Below, one piece after another: positions 1,327 to 9,639 of a stretch of DNA of 20,894 bases. Each line of letters starts with the position of its first letter. The first letter of the stretch is position 1. The notes below the pieces were generated by a model. That model made no database searches and had not been told where the DNA came from. It saw nothing but the letters and a program-made list of their open reading frames with translations. The stretch comes from a virus. A program made the position numbers and the translations under genes. The DNA lies in the IMG/VR virus record IMGVR_UViG_3300031885_000144, positions 1 through 20,894 of that record; one strand, given 5' to 3'.

Positions 1327-1850
1327 TTAACCGTAACTGGAACTGGAACTGGAACTAGAGCCGTAACCGTAACCGTAACCGTCACCGGAACCGTCACCGG
1401 AACCGTAACCGGAACCCTCACCGTCACCGTCACCGTAACCGGAACTGGAGCCGTAACCGTAACCGTCACCGGAACTGGAACTGGAACCGGAACCGTCACC
1501 GTAACCGGAACCGTAACCGTAACCGTCCCCGTAACCGGAACCGGAACTGAAACCGTAACCGTAACCGGAACCGGAACTGAAACCGTAACCGTAACCGTCA
1601 CCGGAACTGGAACTGGAACTGGAACTGGAACTGGAACTGGAACCCTCACCGTCACCGTCACCGGAACCGTAACCGTAACCGGAACCGTAACCGTCACCGG
1701 AACCGTCACCGGAACCGTCACCGCAACCGTCACCGTCACCGCAACCCTCACCGTCACCGTCACCGTAACCCTCACCGTCACCGTCACCGTAACCCTCACC
1801 GTCACCGTGACCGGAGCTGGAACCGGAACCGTAACCGTGACCGGAGCTGT
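1327..1850. repeat. Degenerate hexamer tandem array 1
   Basis: About 87 hexamer units, written on the + strand as variants of AACCGT, AACCGG, CACCGT and AACTGG. Blocks such as CACCGT-CACCGT-AACCCT recur, which suggests growth by slippage and unequal exchange of multi-hexamer blocks. On the minus strand the units read GGTTAC, GGTTCC, GGTGAC and GGTGAG. The array coincides with the Gly-X coding part of the 180-residue gene. Confidence 0.95.
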
Positions 1851-1869
1851 CTATAACTACTGGGCCCAT
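1327..1869 (-). CDS. Gly-X dipeptide-repeat protein 1 (180 aa)
   Basis: After a short unique start (MGPVVIDSS) the protein is almost entirely Gly-X, where X is Tyr, Ser, Asp or Glu, with rare Cys, Phe and His. Serine runs occur where the Gly codon became AGT. I know of no enzymatic family like it. Composition predicts a disordered, flexible, weakly acidic and aromatic chain. The DNA is a hexamer array of mostly GGT-NNC, and several frames are open because the array lacks stops. I chose this frame because the ATG overlaps the DUF6948 stop by 13 bp, the TAA falls where the array ends, and the nearby second array gives the same Gly-X protein. No strong Shine-Dalgarno is visible, so coupling is likely. 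Confidence 0.68.
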   Translation of the reverse strand: MGPVVIDSSGHGYGSGSSSGHGDGEGYGDGDGEGYGDGDGEGCGDGDGCGDGSGDGSGDGYGSGYGYGSGDGDGEGSSSSSSSSSSSSSGDGYGYGFSSGSGYGYGFSSGSGYGDGYGYGSGYGDGSGSSSSSGDGYGYGSSSGYGDGDGEGSGYGSGDGSGDGYGYGYGSSSSSSSSYG

Positions 1870-2204
1870 ATTTTAACGTCCGCAATACTCTTTCTGGCTT
1901 TCTCAGTGGTATTGATTATTTCAATAACGTTGAAAAGTTCAACGCGGTCAACTTCCACGGGAAACTTGCATTCTTCTGGTTTTGCAACGCCATCAATTGC
2001 TAATTGCGATAAACTCGATGCACCACTCCAATACCATAGTCTTCGTGCATTTTTCATTACGATATAATCTTTATCCCTCGACAAAATCTCACCAGCAAAC
2101 ACACCTGCGCTATAGGTTCTAACAATTACATATTCAGATATAACTTCAGAAGTCATTGCTGATTTTTTTATGTAAATTTCGCCGTTTATTTCTATTTCGT
2201 TCAT
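1857..2204 (-). CDS. DUF6948 family phage protein
   Basis: 115 residues, MNEIEING to KIWAQ. The core (YVIVRTYSAGVFAGE, KNARRLWYWSGASSLSQLA, PEECKFP) matches my memory of a widespread small phage protein family, DUF6948, whose function is unknown. The family is almost always found in phage early regions. I use the ATG at 2204 rather than the open frame further upstream, which is translated repeat. AAGGA lies about 9 nt before this ATG, and the family begins here. It sits between the two Gly-X genes, whose arrays flank it. Confidence 0.78.
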   Translation of the reverse strand: MNEIEINGEIYIKKSAMTSEVISEYVIVRTYSAGVFAGEILSRDKDYIVMKNARRLWYWSGASSLSQLAIDGVAKPEECKFPVEVDRVELFNVIEIINTTEKARKSIADVKIWAQ

Positions 2205-2226
2205 TTTATTATCCTTGTTAATTTTT

Positions 2227-2490
2227 TTAGCCGGAGCCATCGTCAACGCCAGAGCCAGAGCCGCAGCCAGAGCCATGCCCAGAGCCATCACAATGGCCAG
2301 AGCCGGAGCCATTACCATAGCCATACCCAGGGCTATAGCCAGAGCCAGAGCCATCGCCATCGCCATGGCCAGAGCCATCACCACAGCCAGAGCCGGAGCC
2401 ATTACCGGAGCCATAGCAATCGCCATTACCATAGCCATTGCCAGAGCCATGGCCAGAGCCATAGCCATGTCCATCAGTAATTGCCGTCAT
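2227..2490 (-). CDS. Gly-X dipeptide-repeat protein 2 (87 aa)
   Basis: After MTAITD the chain is Gly-X to the stop, with X being Ser, His, Tyr, Asn, Asp or Cys. There are minor breaks (DCYG, YSPGYG, GHCDG, GVDDG). Codons follow GGC-NNT, unlike the GGT-NNC of the longer Gly-X gene, so the two arrays expanded separately while encoding the same kind of chain. The TAA directly ends the array. The ATG lies 13 bp after the SSB-like gene, with only a weak GAAG-type ribosome site. His and Cys enrichment could allow metal binding (inference). No known family. Confidence 0.66.
   Translation of the reverse strand: MTAITDGHGYGSGHGSGNGYGNGDCYGSGNGSGSGCGDGSGHGDGDGSGSGYSPGYGYGNGSGSGHCDGSGHGSGCGSGSGVDDGSG
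2230..2475. repeat. Degenerate hexamer tandem array 2
   Basis: About 40 hexamer units, on the + strand mainly AGAGCC, ATAGCC, ATGGCC and ATCGCC (minus strand GGCTCT, GGCTAT, GGCCAT, GGCGAT). It is purer in its first codon (GGC) than array 1. It encodes the 87-residue Gly-X protein. Confidence 0.93.
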
Positions 2491-2503: not shown

Positions 2504-3064
2504 CTAAAATGGAATCCCAGAATCATCAAAAGGCAATCCAGTAACGCTATCAATCTTAGAAGCGCCAACCTTAATTGGCACGCTTGTCACGACCATTGGT
2601 GTTCCGACTACCGTTTCAAAACCACTTATGGGATGAACTTCTGAAACATAATTTCCTTGGCTAAACGAGCCATCGGCTTGGGACATACTCCACTCGCTGA
2701 TTTTGATTCCCAAAACCTTACCTTTCATGGGCATTAAGTCTGAAGTGCTTGGAGCATCCCCATGCGTGGGTTTGTGTTGCGTGAGATCGTAAATTCTTTT
2801 AAGCATATTAAGCGCGCGATCGGCCGTCTCTTTTTTCGGCTCAAAACATTTGATTTTCTGAAACACTACGCGACCTTTAAAATCCCCCTCAACAATCTGC
2901 CAAGAAATTTTGTACCAACTGCCTTTGTCAGTTTGATCAAGAATAAAATCCTTAATTATTGCGGGTGCTTGCGTTCCATCGGGTATTTGAGCAAAAGAAC
3001 CAACATGGGAAGACTCAGCATCTCCTTTAGGGGTGGAACCATCTGATAATGACCAAAAAGACAT
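2504..3064 (-). CDS. SSB-like single-stranded DNA-binding protein
   Basis: 186 residues ending in DDSGIPF. This acidic tip with a terminal Pro-Phe is the hallmark of bacterial and phage SSB proteins, where it recruits replication and repair partners. The body (about residues 20-150) looks beta-rich with an OB-like pattern, including FKGRVVFQKIKCFEP and GKVLGIKISEW. It resembles phage DUF669-type proteins encoded beside Sak4 annealing proteins. AAAGGAG lies 8-9 nt before the ATG, inside the 3' end of the Sak4 gene, and the two genes abut. The likely role is to coat ssDNA for annealing and replication. The family assignment within SSB-like groups is less sure than the role. Confidence 0.75.
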   Translation of the reverse strand: MSFWSLSDGSTPKGDAESSHVGSFAQIPDGTQAPAIIKDFILDQTDKGSWYKISWQIVEGDFKGRVVFQKIKCFEPKKETADRALNMLKRIYDLTQHKPTHGDAPSTSDLMPMKGKVLGIKISEWSMSQADGSFSQGNYVSEVHPISGFETVVGTPMVVTSVPIKVGASKIDSVTGLPFDDSGIPF

Positions 3065-3832
3065 TTATAACTCCTTTGATTGATAAAACGGGATGTATTT
3101 AGCAACGTCTTCAAAAGACATCGGGACTTCATTCGGCATATTAAATCTGTTCTTACTTACATGACTATCGTTAACGCCGGTAACAATGATTCTGTCATTT
3201 GTGGATTTAATCAACGTGCGCCCTGATTCAGTCTCAGAACTAAAGCTTTTTAACCGACAAAACCCAACCATGTCAACGTCGTCAATGTAAACCGAACGAC
3301 ACTTTTCACTGTTCATAATGATAGTGTGGATGTCATAGTCTTCAGCGTCCGGAGCCTTTATTTTAGTAGTGGTCAAGTGCGATACATAAACCACACCCAC
3401 ACCAAGCTCCTGGAATCCATCCATTAGCGCCTTAAATCCACGATGAATAGCTTCAGCCCTCAAAGTGCCAGCACCATAGCCGCCACAAGCGGAATTTAAC
3501 GTGGCAGGTTTACCGCTCTTGGCGGCTGGTTCGTCAGCAAGGATATGATTAACCACAAGCGTATCAAGCTTAGATAAGCTATCAATCACAATCGTTTTAT
3601 AAGGAAGTTCCACCCCAAGCTGAAACAGCGCCTGTGCATTTTTCCATACTTCTTTAAAACTCGTAGAAACGGGCAATGCTTCAATGCCCGATAACCCAAT
3701 CTCCTCGGTCAACAAAAACAAAGGGCTTGGAAACTGTGAAGCAAGCGTGCTTTTCCCAATACCCGGGCGACCATACAAAGTAATTCTTGGCGCTCTCACG
3801 CCAGTTTTAATGATGCTTTCGAGTATGCTCAT
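3065..3832 (-). CDS. Sak4-type RecA-like single-strand annealing ATPase (AAA_24)
   Basis: 255 residues. Walker A is GRPGIGKST (21-29) and Walker B is TIVID with Asp84; a conserved VVYVSHL follows near residue 147. This matches the AAA_24 / Sak4 family of RecA-core proteins that anneal homologous single strands in phage recombination. The immediate neighbours are an SSB-like protein downstream and a DUF7173-like protein upstream, which is a common grouping. Its ATG overlaps the upstream stop by 4 bp. Cytoplasmic; it probably works with the SSB-like protein in strand annealing. Confidence 0.85.
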   Translation of the reverse strand: MSILESIIKTGVRAPRITLYGRPGIGKSTLASQFPSPLFLLTEEIGLSGIEALPVSTSFKEVWKNAQALFQLGVELPYKTIVIDSLSKLDTLVVNHILADEPAAKSGKPATLNSACGGYGAGTLRAEAIHRGFKALMDGFQELGVGVVYVSHLTTTKIKAPDAEDYDIHTIIMNSEKCRSVYIDDVDMVGFCRLKSFSSETESGRTLIKSTNDRIIVTGVNDSHVSKNRFNMPNEVPMSFEDVAKYIPFYQSKEL

Positions 3833-4248
3833 GACGCAGCTCCTATAACCACAGACAATTTCGCAGGCTTGGCTACAATAATCGAGTCAAGAATCTTTTT
3901 ATCCTGCGCGCTGCCATATAAATACGCCTCACGAATGATTTTTTTGTTAAGTTCATATTTTTGCACTACCGATACAGGGTTGAAACAAGCAGGCAATCGC
4001 TTACCTACAACTTCAAATTCTTCTTTGTTCAAACTGTAATTAACACCAGTCTTACAAGTAACCTTGTACCGCTCAAACAAATACGTTTGTTGACCTTCTT
4101 TATCATGCCCTATCAACTCACACACCTGTTTTTCGAGCGCCTCTTTAATGCGAAGTAGTTCCGCAACCTGAAACCCAATCAATTCCAAGGCCTTAACCTT
4201 GTCAACTATGCAATCCTGCCGTACTTGTTCAGCATCTATATCAAACAT
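3829..4248 (-). CDS. DUF7173-like phage recombination-operon protein
   Basis: 139 residues. An N-terminal helical part with a coiled-coil look (LLRIKEALEKQVCELIG, about 31-47) is followed by a beta-strand region (YKVTCKTGVNYSLNKEEFE) and a C-terminal KPAKLSVV motif. The pattern matches small proteins that usually precede Sak4/SSB genes, annotated as DUF7173. Function is unknown; a recombination accessory role is inferred from position. It is the first gene of the leftward early operon, with AGGAGA 5 nt from the ATG. Confidence 0.6.
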   Translation of the reverse strand: MFDIDAEQVRQDCIVDKVKALELIGFQVAELLRIKEALEKQVCELIGHDKEGQQTYLFERYKVTCKTGVNYSLNKEEFEVVGKRLPACFNPVSVVQKYELNKKIIREAYLYGSAQDKKILDSIIVAKPAKLSVVIGAAS

Positions 4249-6593: not shown

Positions 6594-6616
6594 AAAATGC
6601 CCCAACCATGGGGCAT
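6591..6616 (-). terminator. Intrinsic terminator facing left
   Basis: ATGCCCC, a 6-nt loop and GGGGCAT form a 7-bp GC-rich stem (6597-6603 with 6610-6616). Read leftward it is followed by a T-tract (complement of the A run at 6592-6597). No leftward gene ends here, so it would stop antisense transcription of the early operon. Read rightward no T-tract follows. Confidence 0.5.
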
Positions 6617-6643
6617 ACTAAAACGGTAAAGCATCCTAAAAAC

Positions 6644-6661
6644 CGCACTTTGGTCAGTGCG
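6644..6661 (+). other. Short inverted repeat upstream of the initiator
   Basis: CGCACT-TTGGTC-AGTGCG is a perfect 6-bp stem with a 6-nt loop, about 50 bp before the initiator start. It may be an operator or a leader structure; there is no further support. Confidence 0.3.
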
Positions 6662-6709
6662 CATAGTTTAATGGATGCTTATTTATTGTCAATAGTTAAA
6701 GGGCAGAAA

Positions 6710-7711
6710 ATGAGTACTAATGATAAACAATATACAATCGAACAATACAAATTGAATTACCGCGCATGCATTCCTTTTTACATTCTTTTAGATCCAGATC
6801 TGTCTCTCAACGAAATACGTCTTTACGGTTTAATCGAACAACTAGAATCCTCCAGTAAAGATGTCTTTATATCAGATAGGAAATTTGCAGAAATCCTTGG
6901 TATTTCACATGAATCAAATAAAATCCAAAAAATGAAACGCAATTTAGTAAAGAAAAATTATATAAAGCGAGAATTACGCCTTGTAACAATTGGCAAAAGA
7001 AAAGCTGAAATGCATTGCTGGAACACGGCTAAAGGCCTGTTGGTAGAAAATAATACAGGCACAGTCCATGAAGGACACCCCCAGAAAGAAAATAATACAT
7101 GCACAGTCCCACAGAGACCGACCCCCCCAGTCCCTGTGGGACCGACCCCCCCAGTCCCTGTGGGACCGATATGTAATGCCCTTAATATTAAAGCCCTTAA
7201 ATCTATAACTACTACTACAGCCCACCCCCCAGCCGAACCCCAAAAATCCGTCTCCGACCCCGTAGTAGTCGTAGTATTAAATTCTCAAAAGATAACAAAC
7301 CAACTACTAACCGCTTTCCGTGATAACCCCGTAGAAACAGACAAGATAAAAACCGAAGAAGAATTTCTATCAGCATGTGAATATTCAATCGTTCATCGCA
7401 ACGATGGAAACACGGGGGATCCAATTGACGAAATGCAAAGAGTTAGGGGCATTATTAAGCTCGTTAAGTTAGGAACCTTCGAGAACCCGAAAGGGTGGAC
7501 GAATAAATCAAAGGTAAGCCAAGAGCAGATTAATGATCGAATGAGATTGCAAGAAGAGGCTTCTATCAAAAAATGGAACGAAGAAGAAAAGGTGCGTGAA
7601 GTAGAGCGCAAACGAAAAATGAAAATGCCTGTAACAATTGACCTGGTAGAACAGAAAGACGTGAAACGATTAGGAGGGGTTTTGGCTGGATTGCCGATGT
7701 TGCGACATTGA
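6710..7711 (+). CDS. Replication initiator, gpO/RepA-like, with embedded origin
   Basis: 333 residues from the ATG at 6710, which has AAAGGG 6 nt upstream. Residues about 10-110 form a winged-helix initiator domain (RACIPFYILLDPDLSLNEIRLYG, then SDRKFAEILGIS as helix-turn-helix and VKKNYIKRE). Residues 113-155 are low complexity, with a duplicated PTPPVPVGP, because they are encoded by the iteron DNA. The C-terminal half is charged and helical and probably binds a helicase or loader. Lambda O has the same plan: N-terminal winged helix, origin inside the gene, C-terminal partner domain. The frame also stays open from 6608, but that ATG sits in a hairpin without a ribosome site. Confidence 0.75.
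   Translation: MSTNDKQYTIEQYKLNYRACIPFYILLDPDLSLNEIRLYGLIEQLESSSKDVFISDRKFAEILGISHESNKIQKMKRNLVKKNYIKRELRLVTIGKRKAEMHCWNTAKGLLVENNTGTVHEGHPQKENNTCTVPQRPTPPVPVGPTPPVPVGPICNALNIKALKSITTTTAHPPAEPQKSVSDPVVVVVLNSQKITNQLLTAFRDNPVETDKIKTEEEFLSACEYSIVHRNDGNTGDPIDEMQRVRGIIKLVKLGTFENPKGWTNKSKVSQEQINDRMRLQEEASIKKWNEEEKVREVERKRKMKMPVTIDLVEQKDVKRLGGVLAGLPMLRH
7046..7110 (+). repeat. 42-bp-spaced direct repeat at the origin
   Basis: GAAAATAATACA-N-GCACAGTCC occurs at 7046-7067 and 7088-7109 with one difference in 22 bases. Each copy ends in the left arm of an iteron palindrome, so the origin seems to have grown by duplication. Confidence 0.8.
7064..7166 (+). other. Candidate replication origin: four palindromic iterons
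   Basis: Thirteen-bp palindromes lie at 7064-7076 (GTCCATGAAGGAC), 7106-7118 (GTCCCACAGAGAC, imperfect), 7130-7142 and 7154-7166 (both GTCCCTGTGGGAC). The last three are spaced exactly 24 bp apart and separated by CCGACCCCCCCA-type spacers. An AT-rich stretch follows (7167-7210). Four palindromic iterons inside the initiator gene followed by AT-rich DNA is the lambda ori arrangement. The function is inferred. Confidence 0.72.
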
Positions 7712-7712
7712 C

Positions 7713-7982
7713 ATGTACCAACCCCAACAATCTTTCCAAGACTTTGCAAAATCAAAAGGGATCCACTTACTGAAAGACGATATTGTTTTTATAAAGAAGT
7801 GTTTGCTTCTAGTGCCATACAACACAAGAAGAAGCACCCTAGAAACTTACTCGAGCCAATGGTTGTCAGGAATAGGGTGTAGTGATATCGTTCATTTGCG
7901 CCAGAACAAAGGGCGGTTTAAAGCAAATACATACCTGAGGGAGTTGGTGGAAAATGGCTATCGGAATTGTGAAATGGTTTAA
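7713..7982 (+). CDS. Hypothetical protein after the initiator (89 aa)
   Basis: Starts [19 protein letters not shown]; it is helical and polar, with [17 protein letters not shown] near residues 63-79. It begins 1 bp after the initiator stop and overlaps the cold-shock gene by 29 bp. In lambda the helicase loader P occupies this position, but P is much longer and I see no ATPase motif, so a loader role is only positional speculation. Confidence 0.6.
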
Positions 7983-8154
7983 TGATCAAAAAGGATACGG
8001 ATTTATCGAATCAGAAAATAAAGATTATTTTGTGCACTTCAAAGCGATTCAGGGCGATGGTTTTAAAACGCTGAAAGAAGGTAGCAAAGTTGAGTTTGTT
8101 TCTAAGAAGGGTTTAAAGGGCATGGAAGCGCATGAAGTGAAGGTTGTTAGCTGA
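7954..8154 (+). CDS. CspA-family cold-shock domain protein
   Basis: 66 residues, a single five-stranded cold-shock (OB) domain of standard length. It starts [22 protein letters not shown]1 is KGYGFIE (13-19) and RNP2 is YFVHFKAI (25-32). These proteins bind single-stranded RNA or DNA, melt RNA structure and can antiterminate transcription. The aromatic binding residues (W8, F18, F26, F29) are kept. A GGAG/GGTGG site lies before the ATG, within the end of the upstream gene. It may help the phage RNA leaders or antitermination (inference). The family is certain. Confidence 0.95.
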
Positions 8155-9134: not shown

Positions 9135-9348
9135 TTTTTAAACTCCTGTATAAAGTCGATAGTTGAGAAATTACTATATTCCAATCTGGATCGCAAAACC
9201 TGTATGTTTTATTACCGAGCACAATTAATATCCGCGGTTCACCAAAATAAACCCTGTCATTTGCAATGTTAAGCCAATAAAACGCGCCCAATGCCTCAAT
9301 GGAATTGCATTGTTGCTTTACAGTTTCATACTCATGATTCGACGGCAT
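9088..9348 (-). CDS. Hypothetical protein (86 aa)
   Basis: A cytoplasmic-looking protein, MPSNHEYETVKQQC with IEALGAFYWLNIANDRVYFGEPRI and a Lys/Arg-rich, probably disordered tail. No family recognised. Its ATG lies in the last codons of csrA and its 3' end overlaps the next gene by 47 bp. GGGG about 8 nt upstream can serve as ribosome site. Confidence 0.55.
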   Translation of the reverse strand: MPSNHEYETVKQQCNSIEALGAFYWLNIANDRVYFGEPRILIVLGNKTYRFCDPDWNIVISQLSTLYRSLKNEKSQRGSSKRETKA

Positions 9349-9529
9349 TTGGTTTACCCCATGGGTTTATTTTGCGCTTGATTGAAACTTCTTCGCGGTC
9401 AATGACGATGTTGGGTGGTGCTTCAAAGCCTAATCTTACTAATCCACCATGACCGACATCAGTTATTGTCAATATGATATCGTTCCCTATTTTTACTTTC
9501 TGCCCTTTATATCGCCCGAGAACCAGCAT
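9332..9529 (-). CDS. csrA: CsrA/RsmA-family translational regulator
   Basis: 65 residues, the normal length for CsrA. MLVLGRYKGQKVKIGNDIIL, then VRLGFEAPP and IDREEVSIKRK give the full five-strand pattern. L4 and R45 correspond to the RNA-binding residues L4 and R44 of E. coli CsrA. These dimers bind GGA motifs near ribosome sites and usually repress translation. I use the ATG at 9529 rather than the preceding TTG. The ribosome site GGAGGAGG lies in the end of the upstream gene (TGATG overlap) and offers GGA motifs for self-repression. The variation (LGRYKGQ for LTRRVGE) suggests a mobile-element paralogue. Confidence 0.9.
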   Translation of the reverse strand: MLVLGRYKGQKVKIGNDIILTITDVGHGGLVRLGFEAPPNIVIDREEVSIKRKINPWGKPNAVES

Positions 9530-9639
9530 CAAACCTCCTCCATCATTCTACGAATATCTTTAACCGCCAGGGCCATGTTTGCAAGTAGTAGCTCTATTGT
9601 TTCTAACGCGTCGCATAGTCTTTGTTGTTCTTTAGTCAT
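9529..9639 (-). CDS. Tiny helical protein upstream of csrA (36 aa)
   Basis: MTKEQQRLCDALETIELLL to IRRMMEEV: one amphipathic helix. GGGAGG precedes the ATG. Its stop overlaps the csrA start (TGATG), and its last codons form the csrA ribosome site, so its translation probably gates csrA expression. A TAATG overlap joins it to the gene upstream. Confidence 0.55.
   Translation of the reverse strand: MTKEQQRLCDALETIELLLANMALAVKDIRRMMEEV

Follow-up and report, generated by a model that had tools for sequence, protein, structure and literature searches.

Hfq combines an Sm core with a disordered acidic C-terminus that binds this core, mimics nucleic acid and autoregulates the ring; the same C-terminus aids release and is in competition with non-specific RNA (PMC5606850). 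In Acinetobacter Hfq, GGFGGQ repeats and an acidic tip are both needed and alter RNA affinity (PMC11617691), and Hfq condensates depend on the C-terminal domain, as cited in that paper. A simpler chain, the peptide GYGYGYG, self-assembles into amyloid-like fibrils (PMC10510724). Here we describe a phage gene pair that is reminiscent of these systems. One gene encodes DUF6948 (PF22253), which its Pfam entry lists as a 'domain of unknown function', and the other encodes an acidic protein with glycine at every second position (Gly-X), a partner absent from that entry. In the literature searched, we found neither a mention of DUF6948 nor an account of a phage gene pair of this kind, and we conclude that the two genes form a previously undescribed module.

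The stretch of DNA analysed (the window) is the whole of IMG/VR virus record IMGVR_UViG_3300031885_000144 (positions 1 to 20,894; 20,894 nt) and represents a P22-like phage (P22 portal match, E 1.2e-79). Its Gly-X genes belong to a minus-strand operon in which a DUF7173-like gene is followed by those for Sak4, SSB, Gly-X protein 2, DUF6948 and Gly-X protein 1. By coordinate, these are:

1327-1869, minus strand: Gly-X protein 1, 180 aa, 81 hexamers mostly of the form GGT-NNC, pI 4.05, charge -26.
1857-2204, minus strand: DUF6948 protein, 115 aa, PF22253 E 1.7e-29, predicted Sm/LSm-like barrel.
2227-2490, minus strand: Gly-X protein 2, 87 aa, upstream of DUF6948, 41 hexamers mostly of the form GGC-NNT, pI 4.28, charge -8.
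2504-3064, minus strand: single-strand DNA-binding protein (SSB), phrog_9002 E 1e-19, tblastn match to annotated phage SSBs.
3065-3832, minus strand: Sak4-like ssDNA annealing protein (AAA_24), PF13479 E 1.3e-26, phrog_124 E 1.9e-31.
3829-4248, minus strand: DUF7173-like protein, first gene of the operon, PF23791 E 2.2e-5 (below cut-off).

The partner protein is a DUF6948 member by Pfam score (102.2 bits against a cut-off of 27, residues 24-107). Elsewhere in the window, the phage encodes two more nucleic-acid-binding regulators, a CsrA-family RNA-binding regulator (9332-9532, minus strand; PF02599 E 5.4e-14) and a cold-shock domain protein (7954-8154, plus strand; PF00313 E 1.9e-23). A perfect 24-bp tandem repeat (7116-7169, 2.2 copies) lies within the ORF at 6608-7711 and encodes PVGPTPPV-type repeats.

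The period-6 arrays extend from 1361 to 1843 and from 2248 to 2468, as delimited by TRF. A preliminary description of the locus had placed hexamer-repeat genes on both sides of DUF6948, built from GGT-NNC in array 1 and GGC-NNT in array 2, with unique start codons and stops where the arrays end. All of this holds: both minus-strand ORFs are present, and each array is closed by a TAA directly after a Gly codon. The Gly slot of array 1 contains GGT (67), AGT (15) and GGC (3), and its X slot contains TCC (32), TAC (22), GAC (21) and GAG (5); array 2 has GGC in the Gly slot (30) and TCT, GAT, TAT, CAT or AAT as X. The description of both chains as strict Gly-X is accurate except in array 1, where 17 Gly slots hold serine and give rise to serine stretches. 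The NNC codons could suggest a diversity-generating retroelement; no reverse transcriptase was noticed on inspection of the window ORFs. Matches of the Gly-X proteins to Pfam TrAA12 fall below cut-off and are probably driven by low complexity.

A first search with the DUF6948 protein returned seven viral contigs and 16 phage records, and a Gly-X ORF adjoins DUF6948 in all 14 loci first examined, being weak or partly degenerate in two of them (L004 and L015). An alignment-based scan then yielded at least 571 viral-contig relatives, the best 80 of which were kept, together with 75 loci in genome assemblies of bacteria and archaea; each survey scan covers its best 80 loci, and E-values from the locus searches are not collection-wide. 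Pairing was counted in those 185 DUF6948 loci, in phages, prophages or MAG contigs, where the sequence continues for 250 nt or more past the stop codon. A Gly-X ORF lies directly downstream of DUF6948 in 180 of these by an automatic test, and in 182 once two short ORFs of 27 and 23 aa (L092 and L108), which the test had missed, are included; in another missed locus (L013) the Gly-X ORF sits upstream instead. The same test is passed by 17 of 9,981 ORFs located more than 1.5 kb away, and the adjacency is far beyond chance.

Both Gly-X ORFs of the window belong to the class defined by this survey, namely alternating-glycine ORFs directly adjacent to a DUF6948-type gene. At least two such ORFs are present in 12 of 171 surveyed loci, as in the window. 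The two arrays, which the preliminary description had taken for independent expansions, are better taken as two representatives of a single class of Gly-X genes found across phages. At one locus (L045), eight Gly-X-like ORFs, many of them degenerate, lie in a row downstream of a single DUF6948 gene. The module is spread over very many bacterial phyla and a few archaea, both in phages and in contigs that bear prophages; the loci from genomes come mainly from MAG contigs, which can carry an incorrect host label. It is also present in the cultured phages PhiPLPE (Iodobacter) and RcapNL, in Barba phages and in Pectobacterium phages. Assemblies of Neisseria gonorrhoeae also carry it (L559, L164); one N. 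gonorrhoeae record listed as a plasmid measures 2.17 Mb and seems to be a chromosome under the wrong label. Many viral contigs (L178, L183, L190, L210 and others) start or end inside or beside a Gly-X array, which suggests that assembly breaks off at these arrays and that counts of the module are too low.

The association also emerges from the opposite direction. A DNA pattern for Gly-[SYDA] arrays, built without reference to DUF6948, returned 120 stretches: 56 arrays adjoin DUF6948, 24 are too near a contig end and 40 have no DUF6948 match. About half of these 40 are poly-Gly-Ser or Gly-Ala runs within unrelated ORFs. Most of the GYGDG-like arrays among the others follow small proteins with the motifs VVVDRGWIFAGDV or VVLDRGFVYVGDV...WGTTKGLGEL, several of which share the N-terminal 'IxINGxxY' of DUF6948. 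These sister proteins lie outside the PF22253 model and are homologous to DUF6948 (hhalign probability 97.9, E 4.7e-13); the two sister families match each other with a probability of 96.3. In surveys of their own, a Gly-X gene follows the sister-family gene in 68 of 71 loci for one family and in 70 of 72 for the other. Rhodobacter phage RcapNL and 115 Barba phages of Rheinheimera are among the carriers. We conclude that Gly-X is the near-obligate partner of three homologous families, DUF6948 and its two sisters.

The two genes of the module are physically interlocked. In the window, the ATG of Gly-X protein 1 (1869-1867) overlaps the 3' end of the DUF6948 gene, where the TGG codon of Trp113 provides the TG of the start codon. 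The Gly-X start lies 12 nt before the DUF6948 end in most loci (130 loci), and the codon crossing it is TGG in every one of these 130; Trp113 is 99% conserved. The conserved tryptophan codon in the context NNA-TGG thus creates the ATG, and it leaves Glu, Gly, Ala, Val or Asp as residue 2 of the Gly-X protein. This geometry, which the window copy has in common with the 130 surveyed loci, is that expected of translational coupling.

To describe what is retained in the Gly-X tract, we compared 166 arrays comprising 5,912 hexamers. X is Ser in 34%, Tyr in 27%, Asp in 23% and Ala in less than 1%, and 93% of the chains are net acidic. The commonest Gly codon is GGC in about 130 arrays, GGT in 21, GGG in 10 and GGA in 5, and the third base is 92% uniform within arrays. 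Codon class therefore varies between arrays while the Gly-X frame stays constant, in agreement with the proposed selection on the protein. At interior Gly slots, changes at positions 1-2 occur at 0.37 times the per-site rate of synonymous changes at position 3 (95% interval 0.27-0.53, from a bootstrap over 176 arrays that otherwise takes repeat units as independent, although they spread by duplication). The Gly-X tract is under coding selection.

Close relatives reveal how quickly the tract turns over. In eight Pectobacterium/Dickeya phages whose DUF6948 genes differ by 0-12%, the Gly-X genes measure 162, 204, 222, 222, 222, 252, 258 and 270 nt, each length being divisible by six. The order of X residues differs in all except one identical pair, and the Gly slots are nearly all kept. 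The start, MSKLIKPE, is conserved, and the end is GEG in seven of the eight. Comparison of array length and substitutions among strains, and a search for frameshifts or stops in relatives, had both been suggested beforehand as ways of probing the protein-level reading; lengths change by whole hexamers and the frames stay open throughout, an outcome that favours this reading. The order of X is free, and composition and frame are constrained.

The tract is predicted to be intrinsically disordered. In phages related to prophages of gut Clostridia/Bacteroidales MAGs, it is fused to a C-terminal domain of 150 aa, and in the AF2 model of such a fusion the Gly-X tract has a pLDDT of 26-36, whereas the N-terminal helix before it (pLDDT 90) and the globular domain after it are confident. 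Among 80 fetched fusion loci (L167-L246), 52 have both the tract and the overlapping DUF6948 gene, and nearly all others start at contig ends. The fused domain features the motifs FAHGETL and WHHRLTGSCEMG; it has no Pfam family, and its AF2 model has no PDB match.

DUF6948 itself is predicted to adopt an Sm-like fold. Its AlphaFold (AF2) model has a mean pLDDT of 92.6 and shows a five-stranded bent barrel (residues 26-30, 35-44, 47-55, 85-90 and 93-98) with the Sm strand order and a long loop before strand 4. Nearly all of the top 50 Foldseek matches in the PDB are Sm/LSm proteins or chains from spliceosomal assemblies that include such proteins, the exception being a designed cage protein at rank 11. 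The Sm/LSm matches have a probability of 1.00 but modest E-values, from 6.5e-3 upwards, and query-normalized TM scores of 0.38-0.51. As a rough control, the gut-phage fusion model, which also contains a small beta domain, gave no Sm match. A Gly-x(3)-Gly-x-hydrophobic pattern at strand 2 fits the Sm1 register; the Sm2 RG or Hfq YKHA motif is not seen, and the region around Glu95 occupies its place. Profile comparison found no sequence homology to Hfq: hhalign of DUF6948 against Hfq, represented by four sequences, scored 10.2, below column-shuffled controls that reached 12.7. An HMM search of PDB chains with DUF6948 returned no Sm protein, Hfq (PF17209) has no match anywhere in the window record, and PF22253 is the sole Pfam family matched by the DUF6948 protein. 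We therefore limit the claim to a predicted Sm-like fold and do not extend it to Hfq membership. DUF6948 proteins are near-neutral (family median pI 7.6; 5.2 in the window), which counts against the model set out below; the conserved residues Arg29, Arg54, Arg55, Trp57 and Trp59 are candidate nucleic-acid contacts.

These features can be brought together in a tentative model, to which we assign somewhat less than an even chance, in which an Sm-like core and an acidic disordered Gly-X tail act as separate proteins of one module, similar to Hfq and its C-terminal domain. DUF6948 would fold into a small Sm/LSm-like barrel, would probably form oligomers and would bind RNA or ssDNA via its conserved basic and aromatic residues. 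The Gly-X protein would be its disordered partner, composed of a short N-terminal docking segment and an acidic, Tyr-rich Gly-X tract, and both proteins would be made from the same message through coupled translation. The tract may do in trans what the disordered acidic tail of Hfq does in cis, namely compete with nucleic acid for the core and speed its release, and its Tyr/Ser/Gly stickers could cluster the complexes, possibly condensing them. If composition and length matter and X order does not, the array would be free to turn over by gain and loss of whole hexamers. The broader reading, which we hold more hesitantly, is that of a widespread phage ribonucleoprotein-type system, a 'split Hfq', in which a separate, hypervariable, acidic and disordered Gly-X protein controls an Sm-like ring in trans. 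Under that reading, the partner would have escaped annotation because low-complexity filters hide it.

A different emphasis, unlikely in our estimation, makes the Gly-X protein the principal actor: it would self-associate through Tyr and Gly/Ser stickers and form a compartment for replication or assembly, anchored by DUF6948 as its client. The composition (about 40% Gly, with Tyr, Ser and Asp) and a turnover indifferent to X order are in keeping with a sticker-and-spacer chain, and both the fibrils of GYGYGYG and the C-terminus-dependent Hfq condensates introduced above provide precedents. The high Asp content would oppose fibre stacking, however, and Gly-X chains of only 23-27 aa exist; the disorder that AF2 predicts for the tract says nothing on condensation. 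Genomic location also bears on this question. A search with three Pfam models (RecT, Erf and AAA_24) detected an annealing protein in 17 of 35 phage records, and where found it usually lies near the pair, within 5 kb in 13 of the 17 (4.7 expected, p 3e-5). The pair thus tends to the early recombination region, without a tie to Sak4 or SSB. This bears out the siting by recombination genes given in the preliminary description for about half of the records, the other half having no annealing protein detected and the genes near the pair differing between phages. SSB and Sak4 as specific partners are rejected in general, since nearby genes vary; what stays constant beside the Gly-X gene is DUF6948 or one of its sister families.

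This variability of neighbouring genes would also suit a self-contained accessory cassette for host interaction (anti-defence, superinfection exclusion or toxin-antitoxin-like), as would the occurrence across a great many phyla, in phages and in contigs with prophages, and the presence of a fast-evolving Gly-X protein beside a conserved DUF6948. We regard such a role as distinctly improbable, given that the pair is often found near early recombination genes and that Pfam and PHROGs scans matched no known defence or toxin family. A silk-like structural or adhesive part of the virion is very improbable: the alternation is fibroin-like and the pair sits between tail genes in Pectobacterium phages, but there it is opposite in strand to the tail genes and on the same strand as the Erf/SSB genes, and no conserved structural neighbour was seen. 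A non-functional hexamer expansion, DNA-level element or frame artefact can be dismissed, for even though period-6 arrays expand easily and leave several frames open, codon classes differ in the same frame, Gly slots are under purifying selection, the start geometry is fixed and pairing holds in about 97% of loci.

The pair is very strictly conserved and recurs across hundreds of viral contigs as well as assemblies drawn from many bacterial phyla. It offers a natural experiment in how a disordered chain retains function under shuffled sequence order, and, if the Sm reading is true, a fold at the heart of RNA biology would gain a phage branch.

Among known structures, PDB 3by7, an Sm-like protein of putative cyanophage origin from a marine metagenome, has an Sm/LSm-like fold and is among the top Foldseek matches of DUF6948; the HMM search of PDB chains gave no sequence match between the two. 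The Gly-X gene of phage ctOK67 is annotated as 'lamprin', and 'hypothetical protein' also occurs as an annotation of such proteins in phage records. The lamprin label probably reflects low-complexity similarity, the gene being no lamprin homologue in any tested sense. Instead of the GXY triplets of collagen-like proteins or the GAGAGS blocks of fibroin, the Gly-X proteins have a dipeptide period with mainly Ser, Tyr and Asp as X and 0.6% Ala. Their Gly, Tyr, Ser and Asp/Asn composition is common to prion-like low-complexity chains and Gly-Tyr peptides (PMC10510724), from which they differ in their dipeptide period, phage origin, obligate partner and acidity. Hfq of E. coli and Acinetobacter is the closest counterpart. 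Neither sequence similarity to Hfq nor an Sm2 motif was seen in DUF6948, but the module, like Hfq, combines an Sm-type barrel, here predicted, with a disordered, Gly-rich, acidic tail that contains aromatic residues and varies in length. In contrast to Hfq, this tail is a separate protein encoded by an overlapping gene, is built on the Gly-X dipeptide and has its acidic residues spread along the chain.
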